Shown: in pieces, positions 20,769 to 62,056 of the stretch
How the letters are laid out: each line of letters opens with the position of its first letter
How positions within the stretch are numbered: position 1 is the stretch's first letter
Source: Methanoculleus chikugoensis
GTDB taxonomy: Archaea > Halobacteriota > Methanomicrobia > Methanomicrobiales > Methanoculleaceae
DNA length: 63,156 nucleotides
NCBI RefSeq assembly: GCF_900095385.1
Contig: NZ_FMID01000035.1
Span: 1 to 63,156 of the forward strand
Direction of reading: 5' to 3'
Notes under the pieces: model-generated
Database searches by the model: none
Told to the model about the DNA's origin: nothing
What the model saw: only the letters and a program-made list of their open reading frames with translations
Made by a program: the position numbers and the translations under genes

Positions 20769-21016
20769 TGTGACGGTTCGGAGCGCGATGGTGCGTAAGA
20801 ACCGGAGGATGAGAAGACCGACTTTCCCGAAGGGAAAGGAGTTCGAGCACCGTCAGGTGCGAAGGGGAGCGGTCACCTATAACGTGCGCTGAATTTCGTG
20901 TTTTTCGCGAGTCGCGCCTTCGACGCTCCAACCCTGTTCCGTAGGAGCATCGTCCCTTGAAACCCATGGCTTCTCATGGGCTCAGCCGTTGGCCTGGAGA
21001 TTGGATTCCGCGGGCA
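20769..21016. other. intergenic run of short hairpins
   Basis: After the inverted repeat come CTTTCCC-GAA-GGGAAAG (20822-20838), GCACC-GTCA-GGTGC (20847-20860) and CCCATG-GCTTCT-CATGGG (20963-20980). No gene is apparent. The last hairpin lies just past the ThiL stop and could end that operon; the cluster could also be a structured RNA. Confidence 0.4.
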
Positions 21017-24731: not shown

Positions 24732-25622
24732 ATGAAGTGCAGCAAGTGCCGCCGCGACGCGATTCTTTTCCAGCGATACTCCGGGCTGCACCTCTGCGAG
24801 CAGCACTTCAACCGGGATTTCGAGGCGAAGGCGAAGCGGGCGATCCGGGAGCACCGCTGGATCAGGCCCGGAGATACGGTGGCGGTGGCGCTCTCGGGGG
24901 GCAAGGATTCGAGCGCCGTCCTCTTCTTCCTCCACCGGCTCCTCGGCGAGCGCCGTGACGTCCGGCTGATGGCGATCACGGTGGATGAGGGGATATCCGG
25001 CTACCGCGACCCGGGCCAGGCCCGGGCGATCGCCGAGAACATGGGTGTCCCCTGGGTGACGGCAACGTTTCGCGACGAATACGGGATCACGCTCGATGAG
25101 ATCGTGGGCCGGAAGGGGACGGGTCTCTCCTGCTCCTACTGCGGTGTGCTCCGCCGGGCGCTGATGAACCGGATCGCTCGCGAGCATGGGGTCACGAAGT
25201 TCGCCTACGGGTTCAACCTGGACGACGAGGCGCAGTCGGTCCTGATGAACGCTCTCCGGGGGGATGCCGACCGGCTCACCCGTCCCATGCGGGAGGCGGA
25301 GGGGATGGTGCCCCGGATCAAGCCGTTCATGTACGTCCCGGAGCGGGAGGTGGCGCTGTATGCCTTCCTCCACGTCGAGGGATTCGACCTTGCGGGATGT
25401 CCCTACGCGGGCGACGCTCTCCGGGGCGACGTCCGGGGCATCCTCGACGACTACACCTACCGCCACCCGGCGACGAAGTACTCGCTCGTGAACCTCGGCG
25501 AAGCCCTCCGGGAACCGGAGAGGGTTACCGGAGAAGGGCTCCGGGTCTGCGAGCGGTGCGGGGAGCCATGCGGGAGGATCTGCCGGACGTGCCAGGTGCT
25601 GGATGAGGTCCGGCGTTCCTGA
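24732..25622 (+). CDS. TtuA/Ncs6-type tRNA 2-thiolation protein
   Basis: 296 residues. A zinc-binding C-S-K-C and C-E-Q-H at the N-terminus, the PP-loop S-G-G-K-D-S near residue 55, C-S-Y-C-G near residue 136 (Fe-S or catalytic Cys) and C-P near residue 221, then a C-terminal C-E-R-C-G-x2-C-G-R-I-C-R-T-C cluster, all fit the TtuA/Ncs6/CTU1 group. These enzymes activate a tRNA uridine with ATP and insert sulfur. The start is the ATG 49 bases from the divergent RIO2 gene. Confidence 0.92.
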   Translation: MKCSKCRRDAILFQRYSGLHLCEQHFNRDFEAKAKRAIREHRWIRPGDTVAVALSGGKDSSAVLFFLHRLLGERRDVRLMAITVDEGISGYRDPGQARAIAENMGVPWVTATFRDEYGITLDEIVGRKGTGLSCSYCGVLRRALMNRIAREHGVTKFAYGFNLDDEAQSVLMNALRGDADRLTRPMREAEGMVPRIKPFMYVPEREVALYAFLHVEGFDLAGCPYAGDALRGDVRGILDDYTYRHPATKYSLVNLGEALREPERVTGEGLRVCERCGEPCGRICRTCQVLDEVRRS

Positions 25623-25746
25623 GTGGAAGAGCCTGATGGCGGATGGGTGTATCTCCACTGAGGGATAACCCGAGAGTCATAGAACTTCGGGCGATGAAGG
25701 GCGAAACGATCGGATAACGATGGAAAGCCCGTACACTGGACCGTGA

Positions 25747-25900
25747 GGGCTATCGCCACGCACTGCCCCCGCCCCGAGGGGCGGGGGAGGAGGCCGAAGG
25801 CCGGGTGGGGTGGGGGTTGTAAGTCCCAATGGATATGGCATAGACAGGGGAGGGGGGCGAGCCCCCCTCCCCGTCAGCCCCTCCCCCAATGGCGATACCC
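25747..25900. repeat. MITE-like or structured element with nested GC hairpins
   Basis: GGGCTATCGCC (25747-25757) and GGCGATACCC (25891-25900) are near-inverted ends. Inside lie CCCCCGCCCC-GA-GGGGCGGGGG (25766-25787), a perfect 10-base stem, and an 11-base stem of GGGGAGGGGGG and CCCCCCTCCCC around CGAG (25847-25872). No gene spans it. The layout fits a small non-autonomous repeat or a very stable RNA; copies elsewhere in the genome would decide. The flanks (25623-25746 and 25901-26003) hold nothing I recognise. Confidence 0.5.
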
Positions 25901-26003
25901 ACTGGAAATCCGTTGATGAGTCTCCTGCAGATTACGAAACCGGATCTTGAGGCCAGATGGTAGACTCTGATCATCAGGAGTTCAAAATGGAAAACAAGTC
26001 CGA

Positions 26004-26041: not shown

Positions 26042-26764
26042 CTACCGCATCGCGAGACACCCGCCGGTCACGTCGGCGAAGATCTCCATGAACTGCTCGG
26101 GGTGGTTTAAGAACGCCACCGATCGCGGCCGCCCGACCAGGTCGTAGAGTCCGACCTCTTTCTCGATCCCGATTTCCGGGACCTCCACCGGGTTGCAGTA
26201 GCGCACCGGCGGGGCGTCGGGGTAGCGCGGGTTCTTCACCAGCGCCCCGCCCTCCATCTCGTAATAGGCGGCTCCTTTCAGGTCTGCGTAGGGGCCGTAG
26301 TTGCTTGAGAACTCCGACGAGACGAGGTTCGCCATCACGAGATCCTCTCTTCCGGGGTTGATCGTCACGTGACCGTATCCCGGCGGGATCAGGATCTTGT
26401 CGCCGGCGGTGCCCTCGATCATCACCACGTCGCCGGCATTTCGGGTCTGGAGGAGGTAGTGCCCCGTCCCCTCGAGCACCTCGTAGATCTCCGGGTAGAG
26501 TTCTCCTGCCGGGTTCTCGGTGTGGTAGTGGCCCTTCGTCTTGACGTACTCCCCACAGAGCGTCCGGGCGGGAATGACGGTGATATCGTAGCGAACGCGG
26601 TTCTGCCGGAGCCATTCCCGGTCGCTCTCGCTCTTCGCGAGATCCCGGTACATAAAATAGAGGGGCTGATCGGAGGTGCAACCGGGATCTGCGAGAACCT
26701 CTCGCATCTCCTCGATTGTCCTTACCTGCGGCTCCGCTTTGGGGCCGTCCCAGTACCCGTTCAT
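26042..26764 (-). CDS. pgiA: cupin-type glucose-6-phosphate isomerase
   Basis: 240 residues. It is the archaeal cupin enzyme that interconverts glucose-6-phosphate and fructose-6-phosphate, unrelated to the classical PGI fold. G-H-Y-H-T-E near residue 92, the E-I-Y-E-V-L-E-G-T-G-H-Y block near residue 107 and G-Y-G-H-V-T near residue 142 give the two His, Glu and His metal ligands. The start overlaps the stop of the COG1361 gene by four bases, so the two are co-transcribed, an odd functional pairing. Confidence 0.95.
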   Translation of the reverse strand: MNGYWDGPKAEPQVRTIEEMREVLADPGCTSDQPLYFMYRDLAKSESDREWLRQNRVRYDITVIPARTLCGEYVKTKGHYHTENPAGELYPEIYEVLEGTGHYLLQTRNAGDVVMIEGTAGDKILIPPGYGHVTINPGREDLVMANLVSSEFSSNYGPYADLKGAAYYEMEGGALVKNPRYPDAPPVRYCNPVEVPEIGIEKEVGLYDLVGRPRSVAFLNHPEQFMEIFADVTGGCLAMR

Positions 26765-28106: not shown

Positions 28107-29336
28107 GAGCCAACTACCCCGCCCTAAAGGACGGGGCTTGTACCTGCACCCTTACGAGTGCGCTACATTCGGCTGGTTGACAGACAGCCTACTCAGGCAG
28201 GATATACCTGCTTGAGCAATGTTTCGAGCAGCATTGAGGTCGGCATGGAGTTGAAACCCGCATTTCCGGCACCGGAACGACGAGCCTTCCCGGTTTCCTT
28301 TATAGGCATGCCCACACACCGAGCACTTCTGCGAGGTGTACCGCGCATCAACAAGGACAACCTGCTTTCCCAGATCCTCGGCCTTGTACCGGAGGAACTG
28401 TTCCAGTTCATAGAACGACCAGTTGTTCAGTTTCCGGTTGAACTCTACACCTCTCCGCTTCTGAACCCGGATCTTCGAGAGGTCTTCGAGAGCGAAGACC
28501 GTATACTCGGATTCAACAATCTGCTTCGAGATACAGTGGTTGGTATCAGTCACAAACCGTCTTTCCCGTCCAGCCATCCTGCGGAGTTTCCGCTTAGCCG
28601 ACCGGGTGCCTTTGGACTGCAACTCCCGACGGAGATGGGCGTACTTCGACCGAACGCGCTTCACCTGCTTGGAGTTGAAAAAAGTGTTGTCGGAGCAGAC
28701 CGCGACATTCACGATCCCTCGGTCAATCCCGAGCACCTTGACCTCTTGTACCGGCTCCACATCGGGATGTTCCATCGAGATATGGAGGTAGAACACCTTC
28801 TTTCGCTTATCAAAGGAGATGGTCGAAGTTGTGACCGTCCAGGAGAGATACTGGCGGTGATACTCAGAGATTGGGAATGTTGCCTTGATCCGTCCCCTCA
28901 CCGATGCAATGGTGGCGATACCGTGGATCAGATTTACCGTAATGACCCGCTGGTTGTACCGCATAGCGGCGAGCGGTTTCCGTTCTGGCGGAGACGCGCA
29001 CTTACCAGCTTTCAGGGCTTCGCAGGCACAGTCTCGCGCACCCTGCACCAGAGAGGACGGGAGATCAGGAACAGATTCACGAACAGCCTTGTAGGTCGCC
29101 TTGTGGTTCTCCACCTTATTCCACGTATGGTTCTCAAATCCCCACTGTGCAGAGGCAGAGAACGCAGTGGAATAGGCTCTCATCGTATCGAGGAGAGCAG
29201 AGGAGCCGCCATCGGGCAACTGAAGGTTGAACGTGATTGTTCTAATCACATTCATATATTGAGTATGATACCAGAAAACTGTATTGGAGGTGACGGGCAA
29301 TTCCTCCCTGGCCTGAAGGCCGGGGTCTCCTTGCCC
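28107..29336 (-). mobile_element. IS200/IS605-type element carrying only tnpB
   Basis: The element contains a tnpB gene flanked by the subterminal hairpins expected of this group. At the tnpB 3' side, CCCCGCCC and the facing GGACGGGG (28117-28136) form the right-end hairpin. At the 5' side, GGGCAA/TTGCCC (29295-29300, 29331-29336) enclose an inner C-C-T-G-G-C-C stem. There are no terminal inverted repeats or target duplication, as usual for the family. No tnpA is present. Exact ends are estimates from hairpin positions. Confidence 0.8.
28152..29255 (-). CDS. tnpB: TnpB, RNA-guided nuclease of IS200/IS605 element
   Basis: 367 residues from MNVIRTITFNLQLPDGG; a longer frame to 29300 is less likely. 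The RuvC-like residues are visible as D in G-I-D-R-G (near residue 180), E in F-A-L-E-D-L (near residue 259) and D in H-A-D-L-N-A-A-R (near residue 344). The zinc ribbon is C-S-V-C-G-H then C-R-K-C-G-F. All catalytic positions are present, so cleavage activity is plausible. The guide RNA should come from the 3' end of the gene and the right-end hairpin. Confidence 0.92.
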   Translation of the reverse strand: MNVIRTITFNLQLPDGGSSALLDTMRAYSTAFSASAQWGFENHTWNKVENHKATYKAVRESVPDLPSSLVQGARDCACEALKAGKCASPPERKPLAAMRYNQRVITVNLIHGIATIASVRGRIKATFPISEYHRQYLSWTVTTSTISFDKRKKVFYLHISMEHPDVEPVQEVKVLGIDRGIVNVAVCSDNTFFNSKQVKRVRSKYAHLRRELQSKGTRSAKRKLRRMAGRERRFVTDTNHCISKQIVESEYTVFALEDLSKIRVQKRRGVEFNRKLNNWSFYELEQFLRYKAEDLGKQVVLVDARYTSQKCSVCGHAYKGNREGSSFRCRKCGFQLHADLNAARNIAQAGISCLSRLSVNQPNVAHS

Positions 29337-36939: not shown

Positions 36940-38138
36940 TGTTCTTCTCGTTCGCGACGAGAAACCTCCGGCGGCACTGGATACGCTCAGCCCTCTCGAT
37001 CATCGGGATCGTCATCGGTGTCGTCGCCATCGCCTCCCTCGGCGTCATGGGCAACAGCATCAACCTCCTCGCCGCGAACATCATCACCGACGTCGGGGAC
37101 ACCGTCGTGGTCACGCCGCACACCGCGATCGGCGGGACCTTCGCCGGAGACCCGCGGACGACCGTGGACGCCGCCATCCCCGCCCGCGAGGTCGAGGAGA
37201 TCCGGCGGGCGGCAAACCCGCACCGGACGATCCCGGTGCTCCAGGGGGCGGACGAGGTCGAGTTCGGCCGCGGCGAGAGCGGGTATGCCCGGATCATCGG
37301 GCTCGAACCGGGGGATATCCCCGTCCTGCTGGATATCGCAGACGGGCAGCATCTCCGGCAGAACCAGGCGGGCGCGCTCGTCGGCATCCACCTCGCCCGG
37401 GAGTACGGCATAAGCCCCGGTTCGAGGATCGCGATCGGGGGTGAGGACGTCCGGGTGGCGGGCGTACTTGCGGAGCGGGGAATGGGGTTCGATATTAACC
37501 CGGATTACGCGATCGTCGTCTCCGACGGCTGGTACGAGAGCCACTTCGGGGCGAAGGCCTCCTACCCGATGGTCATCGTCCGGGTCGGCGATCCCGATGC
37601 GATAGACGCCGTAAAGGATGCTATCGAGAGCCGGATCAACCGGCGCGAGGATCTGGTCGACGTATCCGACTCGCGCGAGATGCTCGGGCAGTACGAGGAG
37701 ATCTACGATCAGATCACGTTGTTTCTCCTCGGCATCGGTGGAATTGCTCTCGTCGTCGCCGCCGTCAACATCTTAAACGTCATGTACATCTCGGTGACCG
37801 AGCGCATCAGAGAGATCGGCGTCATGCGGAGCATCGGGGCGTTGCGCCGGGAGATCCTCCGGATGTTCCTCTACGAGGCAGTGATCCTCGGGGTCATCGG
37901 AAGCGTCGTCGGCGGTCTTCTGAGCACCGCCTTCGGTTACCTGATCAGCGTCGCCGCGATCGAGGTCGCCACGGCCGGGACGACCTTCGGCGAGAACTTC
38001 ACGGTCTTCGACCAGAGCGCGGTCGGGTTCATTGTCTTCGGGATGGCGTTCGGCATCGGGACGAGTATCGTCGCCGGGTTCTACCCCGCGTGGCGAGCCT
38101 CGCACCTCGCCCCGGTCGATGCGATGAGGCAGAAATAG
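36939..38138 (+). CDS. ABC transporter permease, MacB/FtsX type (first copy)
   Basis: 399 residues from a GTG overlapping the ATPase stop. One N-terminal helix (S-I-I-G-I-V-I-G-V-V-A-I), a large extracellular MacB-like domain (about 45-255) and three C-terminal helices form the FtsX architecture. R-E-I-G-V-M-R-S-I-G-A near residue 288 is the coupling segment. MacB-type systems act as mechanotransducers or extruders rather than channels. The following permease shares its layout, a tandem duplication. Confidence 0.93.
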   Translation: MFFSFATRNLRRHWIRSALSIIGIVIGVVAIASLGVMGNSINLLAANIITDVGDTVVVTPHTAIGGTFAGDPRTTVDAAIPAREVEEIRRAANPHRTIPVLQGADEVEFGRGESGYARIIGLEPGDIPVLLDIADGQHLRQNQAGALVGIHLAREYGISPGSRIAIGGEDVRVAGVLAERGMGFDINPDYAIVVSDGWYESHFGAKASYPMVIVRVGDPDAIDAVKDAIESRINRREDLVDVSDSREMLGQYEEIYDQITLFLLGIGGIALVVAAVNILNVMYISVTERIREIGVMRSIGALRREILRMFLYEAVILGVIGSVVGGLLSTAFGYLISVAAIEVATAGTTFGENFTVFDQSAVGFIVFGMAFGIGTSIVAGFYPAWRASHLAPVDAMRQK

Positions 38139-38150
38139 GGGTGGCAGGGC

Positions 38151-39344
38151 ATGATCTTCATCGATCTCGCGGTGCGCAACCTCAGGCGGCACAAAGTCCG
38201 TTCGATCCTCGCAACGGTCGGCATCGTCATCGGTGTCGTCGCCATCGCCTCTCTCGGCATCATGGGCAGCAGCCTCTCGACGCTTGTCGGGGGTATGGTC
38301 TCGGACGTGAGCGACACCGTGCTCGTCACCCCCCACCTCGCGGCATCGAGCGGCGATCCGTTCGATCCCCGAAGCGCCCTTGCGGCGAGCATCTCCACGA
38401 AGAACGTGGGGCTGATTGAGAAGGCGGCGGGAGAACACCGTGCCGTCCCCATGTTCGTCGCTTCAGCTCGGTTGCGGGTGCGGGATACGAGCGGTTACGC
38501 GACGATATACGCCGTGCCCGCAGCCGATATCCCGTTCCTGATCGAGCGGGAGGCGGGTCTTTACCCGCAGGGGAGGTCTTCGGGGGTGATGGTGGGCTCG
38601 CTCCTTGCCGACGAATTCGACCTCCACCCCGGGAGCCGCATCGAGGTCGGGGGTGAGAGCGTCCGTGTTCTGGGGATCGCGTCAGAACGGGGGATGGGCA
38701 TCGACATCAACCCCGACTACGCCATCATCGTCACGGAGGACTGGTACACGGAGCGGCACGGACCGCAGGACTACAGCCGGGTCATCGTAAAGGTCAGCGA
38801 TCTCTCCGCAATCGAGGACGTTAAGGCCGCCATCGATCAGCAGATCAACCGCAGGAGCGAGGTCGTGGACATCCTGGACTCACGCGAGATCCTGGAGCTC
38901 TACTACGAGACCATCGACGCCATCAACATCTTCCTCCTCGGTATCGGCGGGGTGTCGCTCCTCGTCGCGAGCGTGAGCATCTTGAACGTCATGATCATAT
39001 CGGTCACGGAGCGGACGGCGGAGATCGGGCTGATGCGGAGCATCGGGGCGCGAAAACGGGAGGTTCTCCGGATGTTTCTCTACGAGAGCCTGATCCTCGG
39101 GGTCGTCGGGAGCGTCGTCGGCGGCATCATCAGTGCGGTGGTCGCCTACTACGCCTCTGCCTCCATAGGAGACCTCTTCGCCGATTTCTCCGTCTCGGGA
39201 GAGGCGGGGATTCCCCTCTCCGTGGTGATCGGCTACGTCGCTTTTGCGATGGCGTTCGGCATCGGAACAAGTGTCGTCGCCGGATTCTACCCCGCGTGGA
39301 AGGCGGCGCAGTTGAACCCCATCGAAGCGCTCCGCTACGAGTGA
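38151..39344 (+). CDS. ABC transporter permease, MacB/FtsX type (second copy)
   Basis: 397 residues, clearly paralogous to the preceding permease: both have T/S-I-G/I-I-V-I-G-V-V-A-I-A-S-L-G near residue 22, E-R-G-M-G-x-D-I-N-P-D-Y-A-I near residue 180 and I-G-x-M-R-S-I-G-A near residue 285. The pair probably makes a heterodimer around the single ATPase. It is the last gene of the four-gene export operon. Confidence 0.93.
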   Translation: MIFIDLAVRNLRRHKVRSILATVGIVIGVVAIASLGIMGSSLSTLVGGMVSDVSDTVLVTPHLAASSGDPFDPRSALAASISTKNVGLIEKAAGEHRAVPMFVASARLRVRDTSGYATIYAVPAADIPFLIEREAGLYPQGRSSGVMVGSLLADEFDLHPGSRIEVGGESVRVLGIASERGMGIDINPDYAIIVTEDWYTERHGPQDYSRVIVKVSDLSAIEDVKAAIDQQINRRSEVVDILDSREILELYYETIDAINIFLLGIGGVSLLVASVSILNVMIISVTERTAEIGLMRSIGARKREVLRMFLYESLILGVVGSVVGGIISAVVAYYASASIGDLFADFSVSGEAGIPLSVVIGYVAFAMAFGIGTSVVAGFYPAWKAAQLNPIEALRYE

Positions 39345-59341: not shown

Positions 59342-62056
59342 GTGGCACATTCAGAGGACTCAAAGAGTGCGGTGCGCACCGTAACGCCGGATCGGGGGGT
59401 TCACGAACGCATGGCAGCCATCCTGGCCGAGAACGAGGCACTCCGGTGCGAGAATGCCGCTCTAAAGTCCGTAAAGGATGCGCTCCGGGAGAGCGAGGAA
59501 CGTTACCGGCGCCTCTTCGAGGACGACCTCACCGGGGATGTTGTCGTTGCCCCGGACGGTCGGATACTCTCCTGCAATCCGGCGTTCGCAAGGATATTCG
59601 GTTTTGCCTCAAGGGAAGAGGCCCCGGGTACCGATATCCGGGATCTCTTCGAGGATCCCGGTGACCTGGACCGGGTCGTCGCAACCCTCCGGATGGAAGG
59701 AAAGATAGAGAACGTAGGCCGGAGACGGAGACGCCGGGACGGAACCCGCATCCATGTCGTGGAGAACGTGGTCGGGCGCTTCGGCCCCGGCGGCGAACTG
59801 CTCGAGATCCAGGGCTACATCTACGACGACTCGGAGCGCAAACGGGCGGAGGAGGCCCTCCGGGAGAACATGGAGAGGTACCGCCAGGCGCTCGACAACC
59901 CGCTCACCGGCTACGCTTACTGCGAGATCGTCGTCGATGCTGCTGGAAAGCCTGCTGATTACATTTATCTGGAGGTTAACCGGGCGTTTGAGCTCTTTAC
60001 CGGGCTTAGAAGGGAAAAGGTCGTGAACCGGCGGGTGACTGAAGTTCTCCCCCCGGATGAGGCTGCCGGAATCATTGCAATCTACGGAAACGTTGCACTG
60101 ACGGGAGCATCTACGGCGTTTCAGTACCCTGTGCCGACTCTTGCGAAATGGTTCGAGGTCACCGCGTTTTCGCATCAACGGGGACGCGTTACAACCTTCT
60201 TCACCGACATCACCGAGCGCAAACGGGCGGAGGAGGCTCTCCGGGAGAGCGAGGAGCGTTACCGTCGCCTCTTCGAAGACGATCTCACGGGGGACTTCCT
60301 CACCGCCGCGGATGGCCGGATAATCGCCTGCAACCCGGCGTTCGTCAGGATGTTCGGGTTTGATTCCGTAGATGACGCACTGGACACCGATATCCGCGAC
60401 CTCTATGAAGATCCCCGTGACCGGGACATGCTCCTCGCACGCCTGCAGCGGGACGGGAAAGTTGAGAACGAGGGAAGGGTCCGGAAGCGCCGGGACGGGA
60501 CACGCATCCATGTCATAGAGAACGTGGTCGGATGCTTCAGCGCGGACGGCGAACTACTCGAGACCCAGGGGTACGCCTACGACGATTCGGAGCGCAAACG
60601 GGCAGAAGATGCCCTCCGGGAGAGCATGGAGTGGTACCGGCAGGCGCTCGATAACCCGCTTGTCGCGTATGTTTTCTGCGAGATCATCGCCGATGACACC
60701 GGGAAACCCGTCGATGTTGTCTATTTGAAGATTAACAAGGCGTTTGAACAGTTTACAGGGCTTGTTCGGGAGGATGTCCTGAACCGGCGGGCGACTGAGA
60801 TCTTCGCCCCGGAGGATATCAGCGACCTTATTGCGATCTACGGGAACGTGGCATTGACAGGCGAATCGACGACATTCCAGTACCCACTGCCTTCCCTATC
60901 GAGATGGTATGAAGTCACTGCGTTCTCGTCGCAACAGGGACATGTTACAGCATTCTTCACCGACATCACGGGGCGCAAACTGGCTGAGGAAGCTCTCCAG
61001 GAGAGCGAAGAGCGGTTCCGGGCGGTCCTTGAGAACTCGCTCGACGCGGCCTACCGCCGCAACCTTCAGGCCGACCGCTACGATTACATGAGCCCGGCGA
61101 TCGAGGAGATCCTTGGGTTCACCCCGGAAGAGATGAGCGCGATGAACCTCGAAGAGATCATAGGGCGCATCCATCCCGATGACCGCCCGGCAGTCGAGGC
61201 GGAACTGGACGCCGCTGTTGCCTCAGGGAGATGCCTCCTCGTATACCGGTTTCTGGCGAAAAACGGGGAGTATCGCTGGCTTGAAGACCACCTCATGGTG
61301 ATCCGTGATCCCGGCGGCCGGCCGCTCTACCGGGGCGGCATCGTCCGCGACGTCACCGGGCGAAAGGAGGCCGAGGCGGAGCTCGTCCGGGTACACCGGG
61401 AGGCGAACCTCTACCTCGATATCCTGACCCACGATATCGGGAACACGGAGAACGTCTCGAACCTCTATGCCGACCTGCTCGTCGACTCCGTGGAGGGCGA
61501 AGCGGCCGGATACGCGGCGAACCTGAAGGGGAGCATAACAAAGAGCATCGCGATCCTCGGCATCGTCTCCAAGATCCGGCGGATTCACGCCGGACCGCCC
61601 GAGCTCCGGTCGGTCGACCTCGATGCGGTTATTCGAACCGAGATAGACCACTTCCCGGCCGTCCCCATCAGTTACGAGGGTGCATCGTGCAAGGTCGTTG
61701 CCGACGATCTCCTCTGCGAGGTCTTCACGAACCTGATCGGCAACGCCGTCAAGCACGGCGGCCCCGGCGTCGCCGTAACCGTCCGGGTCGAAGAGCAGAA
61801 CGGCGAGGTGCTGGTGACGGTCGCGGATACCGGCCGGGGCGTCCCGGACAATCAGAAAGAGGAGATATTTCACCGCTACGAAAGAAAGCAACGGGGCGTG
61901 GGCGAGGGACTCGGGCTCTACCTCGTGCAGATCCTCATCGACCGATACGGTGGGAGGATCTGGGTCGAAGACCGGGTGCCGGGGCATCCGGAAGAGGGAG
62001 CGGCATTCTCCTTCCTGCTCCGGGAGACAGATGCCGTCCATCCTTCCGGCCGTTGA
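59342..62056 (+). CDS. multi-PAS sensor histidine kinase
   Basis: 904 residues from a GTG. A coiled start (about 20-50) leads into five PAS domains. PAS1 and PAS3 both have R-Y-R-R-L-F-E-D-D-L-T-G-D, and PAS2 and PAS4 both have Y-R-Q-A-L-D-N-P-L, so a two-domain unit is duplicated. PAS5 begins near residue 555. The kinase core has H-D-I-G-N near residue 697, N-L-I-G-N-A-V-K-H near residue 799 and D-T-G-R-G near residue 829. No membrane helix is seen, so sensing is cytoplasmic. No response regulator is adjacent. Confidence 0.93.
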   Translation: MAHSEDSKSAVRTVTPDRGVHERMAAILAENEALRCENAALKSVKDALRESEERYRRLFEDDLTGDVVVAPDGRILSCNPAFARIFGFASREEAPGTDIRDLFEDPGDLDRVVATLRMEGKIENVGRRRRRRDGTRIHVVENVVGRFGPGGELLEIQGYIYDDSERKRAEEALRENMERYRQALDNPLTGYAYCEIVVDAAGKPADYIYLEVNRAFELFTGLRREKVVNRRVTEVLPPDEAAGIIAIYGNVALTGASTAFQYPVPTLAKWFEVTAFSHQRGRVTTFFTDITERKRAEEALRESEERYRRLFEDDLTGDFLTAADGRIIACNPAFVRMFGFDSVDDALDTDIRDLYEDPRDRDMLLARLQRDGKVENEGRVRKRRDGTRIHVIENVVGCFSADGELLETQGYAYDDSERKRAEDALRESMEWYRQALDNPLVAYVFCEIIADDTGKPVDVVYLKINKAFEQFTGLVREDVLNRRATEIFAPEDISDLIAIYGNVALTGESTTFQYPLPSLSRWYEVTAFSSQQGHVTAFFTDITGRKLAEEALQESEERFRAVLENSLDAAYRRNLQADRYDYMSPAIEEILGFTPEEMSAMNLEEIIGRIHPDDRPAVEAELDAAVASGRCLLVYRFLAKNGEYRWLEDHLMVIRDPGGRPLYRGGIVRDVTGRKEAEAELVRVHREANLYLDILTHDIGNTENVSNLYADLLVDSVEGEAAGYAANLKGSITKSIAILGIVSKIRRIHAGPPELRSVDLDAVIRTEIDHFPAVPISYEGASCKVVADDLLCEVFTNLIGNAVKHGGPGVAVTVRVEEQNGEVLVTVADTGRGVPDNQKEEIFHRYERKQRGVGEGLGLYLVQILIDRYGGRIWVEDRVPGHPEEGAAFSFLLRETDAVHPSGR

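Follow-up and report, generated by a model that had tools for sequence, protein, structure and literature searches.

A dispersed palindromic element of Methanoculleus with conserved ends and covarying hairpins, probably moved in trans

Positions 25747-25900 of the window (the whole stretch of 63,156 nt of DNA that was analysed) are the core of a dispersed repeat found in many intergenic copies. Its two conserved ends are distinct from each other, long and short forms as well as tandem arrays occur, and close relatives differ in whether a given gene junction carries it. The window sequence is probably one copy of a non-autonomous, palindromic, MITE- or REPIN-like element of Methanomicrobiales that is moved by a putative enzyme acting in trans. 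The class to which it belongs, the dispersed palindromic repeat, is an ordinary one; its form is unusually elaborate and well defined, and it is partly in print. As judged from its sequence, the element has as its G-rich strand the repetitive potential G-quadruplex sequence (rPQS) published for Methanomicrobiaceae in 2021 (Chashchina et al., PMC8044849, available sections).

Copy number, anatomy and forms of the element

The proposal of a repeat with many genome copies, made in a sequence-only reading of this DNA, was confirmed by matches in the genome itself and in the genus. A blastn search with the region gave 122 HSPs in the source genome (2.65 Mb, 70 contigs), with identities down to 75% and copies that are partly clustered (e.g. 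C32:22974-23621), and a 24-nt left-end pattern of the long form, with up to 3 mismatches allowed, matched 55 times versus 0 in the reversed control. Because the element recurs in this manner, a chance origin is ruled out. The window itself holds a single copy. Within the genus, matches were obtained in 33 of 34 genomes by blastn and in 32 of 34 using a covariance model (CM) at a threshold of 1e-6, where at most 38 candidates were scored per genome; the sequence is clearly multicopy and conserved in relatives.

The element is best developed in Methanoculleus and patchy between genera of Methanomicrobiales. Of 46 genomes from outside the genus, 5 matched the CM at 1e-6. The named loci bearing the element belong to Methanoculleus (M. 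sediminis S3Fa and M. sp. MH98A among them) or to Methanomicrobiales/Euryarchaeota MAGs. Genome G063, from another genus of the same family, gave 50 CM matches at 1e-3 with ends A and B recognisable, and G062, from the same genus as G063, gave 0. Copies in G036 are mostly of the short form with end A, and exact GTGGACCGTGG was found there 48 times versus once in the control. G075 and G070, which represent another family, carry a more distantly related element that lacks end A. Three tandem copies of this distant relative in G070 (L325, L333 and L341 at 403668, 403919 and 404171, a spacing of about 250 bp) retain the stem 1-stem 2 architecture with different stem sequences.

The window copy occupies the gap between the converging genes for a TtuA-like protein and glucose-6-phosphate isomerase (GPI; Table 1). 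The conserved unit of approximately 200 bases overshoots 25747-25900 on both sides, and copies aligned on their ends show the order end A (CCCSRTRCASTGGACCGTGG), TATCGCCA-core-TGGCGATA and end B, the latter being the reverse complement of CCCRTGCACGGATTTC. The near-inverted ends described earlier for a 154-base element are present (GGCTATCGCCA at 25748-25758 and TGGCGATACCC at 25890-25900), each 11 nt long and 91% complementary. The two stems described as perfect, GC-only and 10 and 11 bases long are also both there, with arms CCCCCGCCCC/GGGGCGGGGG at 25766-25775/25778-25787 for stem 1 and GGGGAGGGGGGC/GCCCCCCTCCCC at 25847-25858/25861-25872 for stem 3; their description had to be amended, since both perfect repeats leave just 2 nt between the arms, so that the stems, once folded, span 9 and 11 bp and are each closed by a loop of 4 nt, and since stem 3 has one A-T pair and is therefore not GC-only. 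A third, small hairpin (stem 2) is located between these two GC-rich hairpins.

Table 1. Features of the window copy and its two neighbouring genes
Feature	Position	Strand	Basis
End A, outward extension, weakly conserved	25690..25727	+	Held-out HMM, scored family-wide on 99 ends
End A, CCCGTACACTGGACCGTG (family consensus CCCSRTRCASTGGACCGTG)	25728..25745	+	63-copy profile
Core, long form, 147 nt, bounded by TATCGCCA / TGGCGATA	25751..25897	+	Core HMM 3.4e-38; CM 156.1 bits
Stem 1, GC hairpin of 9-10 bp	25766..25787	+	Fold, covariation across three genera
Stem 2, GGCCGAAGGCC	25792..25802	+	Compensatory swaps
Stem 3, GC-rich hairpin of 11-12 bp	25847..25872	+	Fold, inverted-repeat arms, consensus fold
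Published repetitive potential G-quadruplex, CTGAC central loop	25862..25887	-	Exact GGGGGAGGGGCTGACGGGGAGGGGGG
End B, reverse complement of CCCRTGCACGGATTTCC family end	~25904..25920	+	40-copy B-end profile; window copy aligned by eye
Left neighbour, TtuA-like 2-thiouridine synthetase (context only)	24732..25622	+	PF22082, PF01171
Right neighbour, archaeal-type glucose-6-phosphate isomerase (context only)	26042..26764	-	PF06560

End A was found as 49 exact matches to CASTGGACCGTG in the source genome, and in the fetched loci the core starts within 22 nt after 121 of 134 distinct A ends (1 mismatch allowed). Both ends of the unit carry CCCSRTRCA, with TATCGCCA/TGGCGATA inside, and between these A and B differ. 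The 60 nt outside the A ends are weakly conserved (12.6 versus 7.5 bits for shuffled sequences, p 6e-19; held-out HMM, 99 ends), and outside the B ends there is little conservation (9.0 versus 8.6 bits, p 0.012). Private self-complementary outer arms, taken from one locus, turned out not to be a general property (p 0.40 versus swapped pairs; the 99th percentile was exceeded by 2 of 101).

Both orientations of the core relative to ends A and B are found in the family. A short form without stems 1 and 2 was recognised by eye in at least 7 of 20 A-end regions (L062, L063, L067, L069, L071, L079 and L080), and one A-B unit of G036 (L353) has almost no core. Tandem arrays and nested insertions occur among the copies, and other short hairpin repeats are inserted within many of them. 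A second small hairpin repeat family (GGAGTTCGAGCACCGAAGGTGCG-like) is present in the window at about 20800-20862 (+); such repeats are repeatedly inserted inside GC-hairpin elements (L066, L073, L076, L077, L190 and L224), and the tandem array in L224 is formed by a small hairpin repeat related to this family. The window further contains direct repeats at 59475-61047 and 37571-39329, which are 68-84% identical and apparently protein-coding.

Base pairing at the DNA or RNA level

Fold and covariation across copies were among the checks proposed with the sequence-only reading. The fold is better than that of dinucleotide shuffles, with z values of -3.85 for the plus-strand RNA, -4.46 for the minus-strand RNA and -2.97 for the 196-nt unit as DNA; the consensus fold retains stems 1, 2 and 3, and the stems covary strongly. 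For stem 1, 98.8% of 171 cells were paired and 20 cells had double changes, with 0 of 500 shuffles as high, in a set of 19 sequences from three genera that were hand-picked from Methanoculleus, G063 and G070 and whose relatedness was not controlled. Sliding the pairing partner destroyed this signal. Stem 2 showed compensatory GGCC/GCGC swaps at two pairs in 14 of 55 copies, and the unpaired flanks ACTGCC and GGAGGAG are nearly constant across genera.

A strong fold with covarying stems would also be expected of a structural or regulatory RNA gene family, and a structural RNA had been among the earlier suggestions. A functional RNA is expected to favour G.U pairs on its own strand. Among the cells of 55 sequences, 1230 of 1253 were Watson-Crick, and G.T and A.C were found 7 versus 10 times (p 0.63), i.e. 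a wobble bias was absent on both strands. The fold is equally good for either strand, the orientation of copies to tandem genes is random (38 same versus 52 opposite), and no Rfam family scored above its gathering threshold on the element, where matches at chance level only were obtained. On the basis of wobble symmetry, gene orientation and Rfam, structural RNA was rejected, and we regard an RNA gene family as very unlikely. As there is neither a wobble bias nor a preferred orientation to genes, the pairing is read as being kept at the DNA level, and the structure appears to belong to the DNA rather than to a conserved RNA. The pairing could be kept by a mechanism that requires the hairpin, or by one arm being copied from the other.

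Genomic location, turnover and core orientation

The copies are found mainly between convergent genes. Using a simple codon-score caller instead of annotation, and counting only copies with a called neighbour on both sides, 122 of 230 copies were located in convergent, 90 in tandem and 18 in divergent gaps, compared with 85, 210 and 106, respectively, of 401 background gaps of at least 60 nt from the fetched stretches, element sites included. Another 13 copies overlap a called ORF. Two repeats of the window locus (L041 and L081) are part of the earlier set of 423 pairs but were excluded when pairs and gene contexts were counted later.

In the complete genome G029, the strand of end A is apparently clustered in domains along the chromosome; a hand count over the first 840 kb or so placed 19 of 23 on the minus strand. 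An exploratory test with 86 sites, obtained after merging same-strand near neighbours, gave 33 strand switches versus 42.4 expected (p 0.024). A clear replichore pattern was not found in the sampled GC skew, and no claim of replication-linked insertion is made.

At the TtuA-GPI junction several relatives are without the element (e.g. L090, L102 and L106), L088 has the right end alone, and G026 (L092) has the opposite core next to a left flank that looks orthologous, all as judged by eye. The site of L224 in G019 corresponds in G033 to a gap of 188 bp that is free of the element and has flanks about 91-92% identical, and the site of L238 is likewise element-free in one of these two close species. 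Absence of the element is accompanied by differences in the intergenic DNA around it. Two candidate empty sites were not shown to be clean; an empty site with both flanks contiguous was not recovered, hence no target-site duplication (TSD) is shown.

At five sites of G033, the G019 counterpart is an element of a different sub-form with different private flanks. Orthologous junctions of G019 and G033 were re-occupied in 6 of 10 cases, or in 4 of 8 when two stretches picked with the motif match already known (L281 for L266 and L291 for L239) were left out, versus a background in G029, where 20 stretches picked by coordinate had 11 of their 124 gaps occupied. A hand calculation for 4 of 8 against this background of 8.9% gave p about 0.003, for a small sample with the background from a third species and from which targeted stretches without an orthologous junction had fallen out.

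A segment of roughly 4.4 kb is apparently inverted between G019 (L229 and L236) and G033 (L283), with a copy of the element at each end in G019. The junctions of L229 and L236 are disturbed because they lie at the ends of this segment. The arrangement suggests that the repeats seed rearrangements.

Re-occupation of junctions bears on a different reading, in which the element would be GC-hairpin/G-quadruplex DNA domesticated by the host at gene ends, where it would serve transcription stop or supercoiling relief in a BIME-like manner, its spread being a by-product. This reading is consistent with the convergent enrichment (122 of 230), which matches the tail-to-tail location of about half of the published motifs, and with the formation of G4, hairpin or triplex by the G-rich strand of stem 3 in vitro (both PMC8044849, available sections), as well as with the covariation of the stems across genera, the retained ACTGCC...GGAGGAG and the occupancy of orthologous junctions above that in G029. 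However, many genomes are without the element at the same junction, 2 of 34 genomes of the genus and G062 of the same family have no CM match, and the avoidance of divergent gaps is also predicted by purifying selection on any insertion. A host role as the primary explanation is therefore rather unlikely.

Core orientation was evaluated in 302 orthologous pairs, left after 10 near-identical ones had been removed from 312; these pairs are not independent of each other. Both private flanks aligned in 19 pairs, 18 with the same core orientation and one flipped (L082 of G003 versus L085 of G006, flanks alignable at 0.83 and 0.75, cores opposite), and one private flank aligned in 53 pairs, 46 of them with the same orientation and 7 flipped. 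In the remaining 230 pairs neither private flank aligned, and 101 same versus 129 opposite orientations were no better than chance agreement. Thus, cores do genuinely invert in place, but rarely, as only one of the 19 pairs with both flanks aligned is flipped. The 230 pairs with unalignable flanks fit turnover, and most opposite orientations represent independent arrival or turnover. Frequent in-place inversion, deduced from 57 'INV' among 121 solo full-length pairs, was abandoned once flank identity had been calibrated.

These pairs also bear on an actively switching inverton, in which a recombinase would flip the core as a phase-variation switch. Such a switch would account for the core being found either way round between ends A and B, for the clear in-place flip of L082/L085 and for the seven flips with one flank aligned. 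It is most improbable given that 18 of 19 pairs with both flanks aligned keep their orientation, and that opposite orientations are common just at unaligned flanks (129 of 230), as independent insertions predict.

Mobility and relation to known systems

In the preferred reading of a MITE- or REPIN-like element moved in trans, a putative enzyme would copy or move the element and might recognise its ends and/or the hairpin core in single-stranded or extruded DNA. The element would spread to intergenic sites, mostly downstream of genes, with quick turnover, copies presumably surviving there because insertion is least harmful. Occasionally, the core could flip in place via its short inverted repeats, e.g. 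by template switching at the hairpin.

Among 51 measured A-to-B intervals in the loci fetched by then, none exceeded 376 nt, and 50 further A ends had no B match with the pattern used; this spacing revealed no autonomous copy. The earlier proposal of a MITE holds as the best functional analogy, with numerous short, near-identical, non-coding copies, but no autonomous partner was found. A true REPIN/BIME, which would depend on a RAYT (REP-associated Y1 tyrosine transposase) for its movement, would likewise be palindromic, intergenic and of high copy number with paired inverted ends. However, Y1_Tnp (PF01797) gave 0 matches in the source genome in a search that rang in 6 of 14 controls, and a REP tag of the GTAG/CGTC type (tags as given in the available part of PMC3733652) was not seen by eye. 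A RAYT-driven REPIN/BIME is thus largely refuted for this genome and barely credible as an explanation. An orphan TnpB-like gene (PF01385, PF07282) is located in the window at 28152-29300 (-), and no Y1 TnpA was found in the genome.

More tentatively, the element may belong to a family of mobile, structured DNA that is defined by ACTGCC...GGAGGAG plus hairpins in at least two families of Methanomicrobiales, whose mobiliser, other than a Y1 RAYT, would recognise folded single-stranded DNA, and whose junctions would be re-occupied across species; we consider this possible, if doubtful.

No description of the composite element or of its ends was found in the open-licence literature on Methanoculleus repeats, archaeal palindromes and Methanomicrobiaceae G-quadruplexes, a negative result that does not prove novelty. 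The main text of PMC12306157, in its available sections, does not name Methanoculleus, and PMC6749651 reports two satellite families of Methanoculleus marisnigri whose codes give repeat lengths of 45 and 51.

The analysis turns an isolated published G-quadruplex motif into a defined element with boundaries, sub-forms, a genus-wide distribution and cross-genus covariation, and this element provides a concrete handle on what moves the repeat. It follows that the G4 repeats in the literature are to be understood in the first place as pieces of a spreading repeat and not as gene-by-gene regulatory sites. Palindromic repeats of archaea that reach high copy numbers and have no Y1 partner would extend the spectrum of REPIN-like systems, provided that the mobiliser is found.

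REP, BIME and REPIN sequences share the downstream-of-gene bias of the element. They are also palindromic, intergenic and clustered, whereas the element differs in its ends, in a unit far longer than a REP and in the lack of a Y1 RAYT in the genome (PMC2817692, PMC3116915, available sections). With MITEs, as described in the available part of PMC10969869, it has in common that it is short, non-coding and multicopy with at least partly inverted ends and presence/absence among relatives; it differs from them in that no partner IS was found and no TSD shown, in that ends A and B are only partly complementary, and in its elaborate conserved internal stems. The Correia elements of Neisseria, for which inversion is reported (cited in PMC10969869), are similarly dispersed and palindromic, a likeness by description and not by sequence, and inversion of the present element is inferred between species and not within one strain.

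The closest match is the rPQS of Methanomicrobiaceae. In its available sections, PMC8044849 deals with a G/C-rich motif of ~40 nt, searched with +/-100 nt, and lists a CTGAC loop for Methanoculleus with a C-rich tract 3' of the motif; its Results and most of its Discussion are without ends A/B, stems 1/2, long and short forms, arrays, nesting and core orientation. The published motif was located in convergent, tandem and divergent gaps in about half, 39% and 11% of cases, respectively, and formed G4, hairpin and triplex in vitro. The window copy carries on its minus strand the exact CTGAC-loop rPQS together with the 3' C-rich tract, and the element shares with the published motif its hosts, its intergenic placement and its convergent bias.
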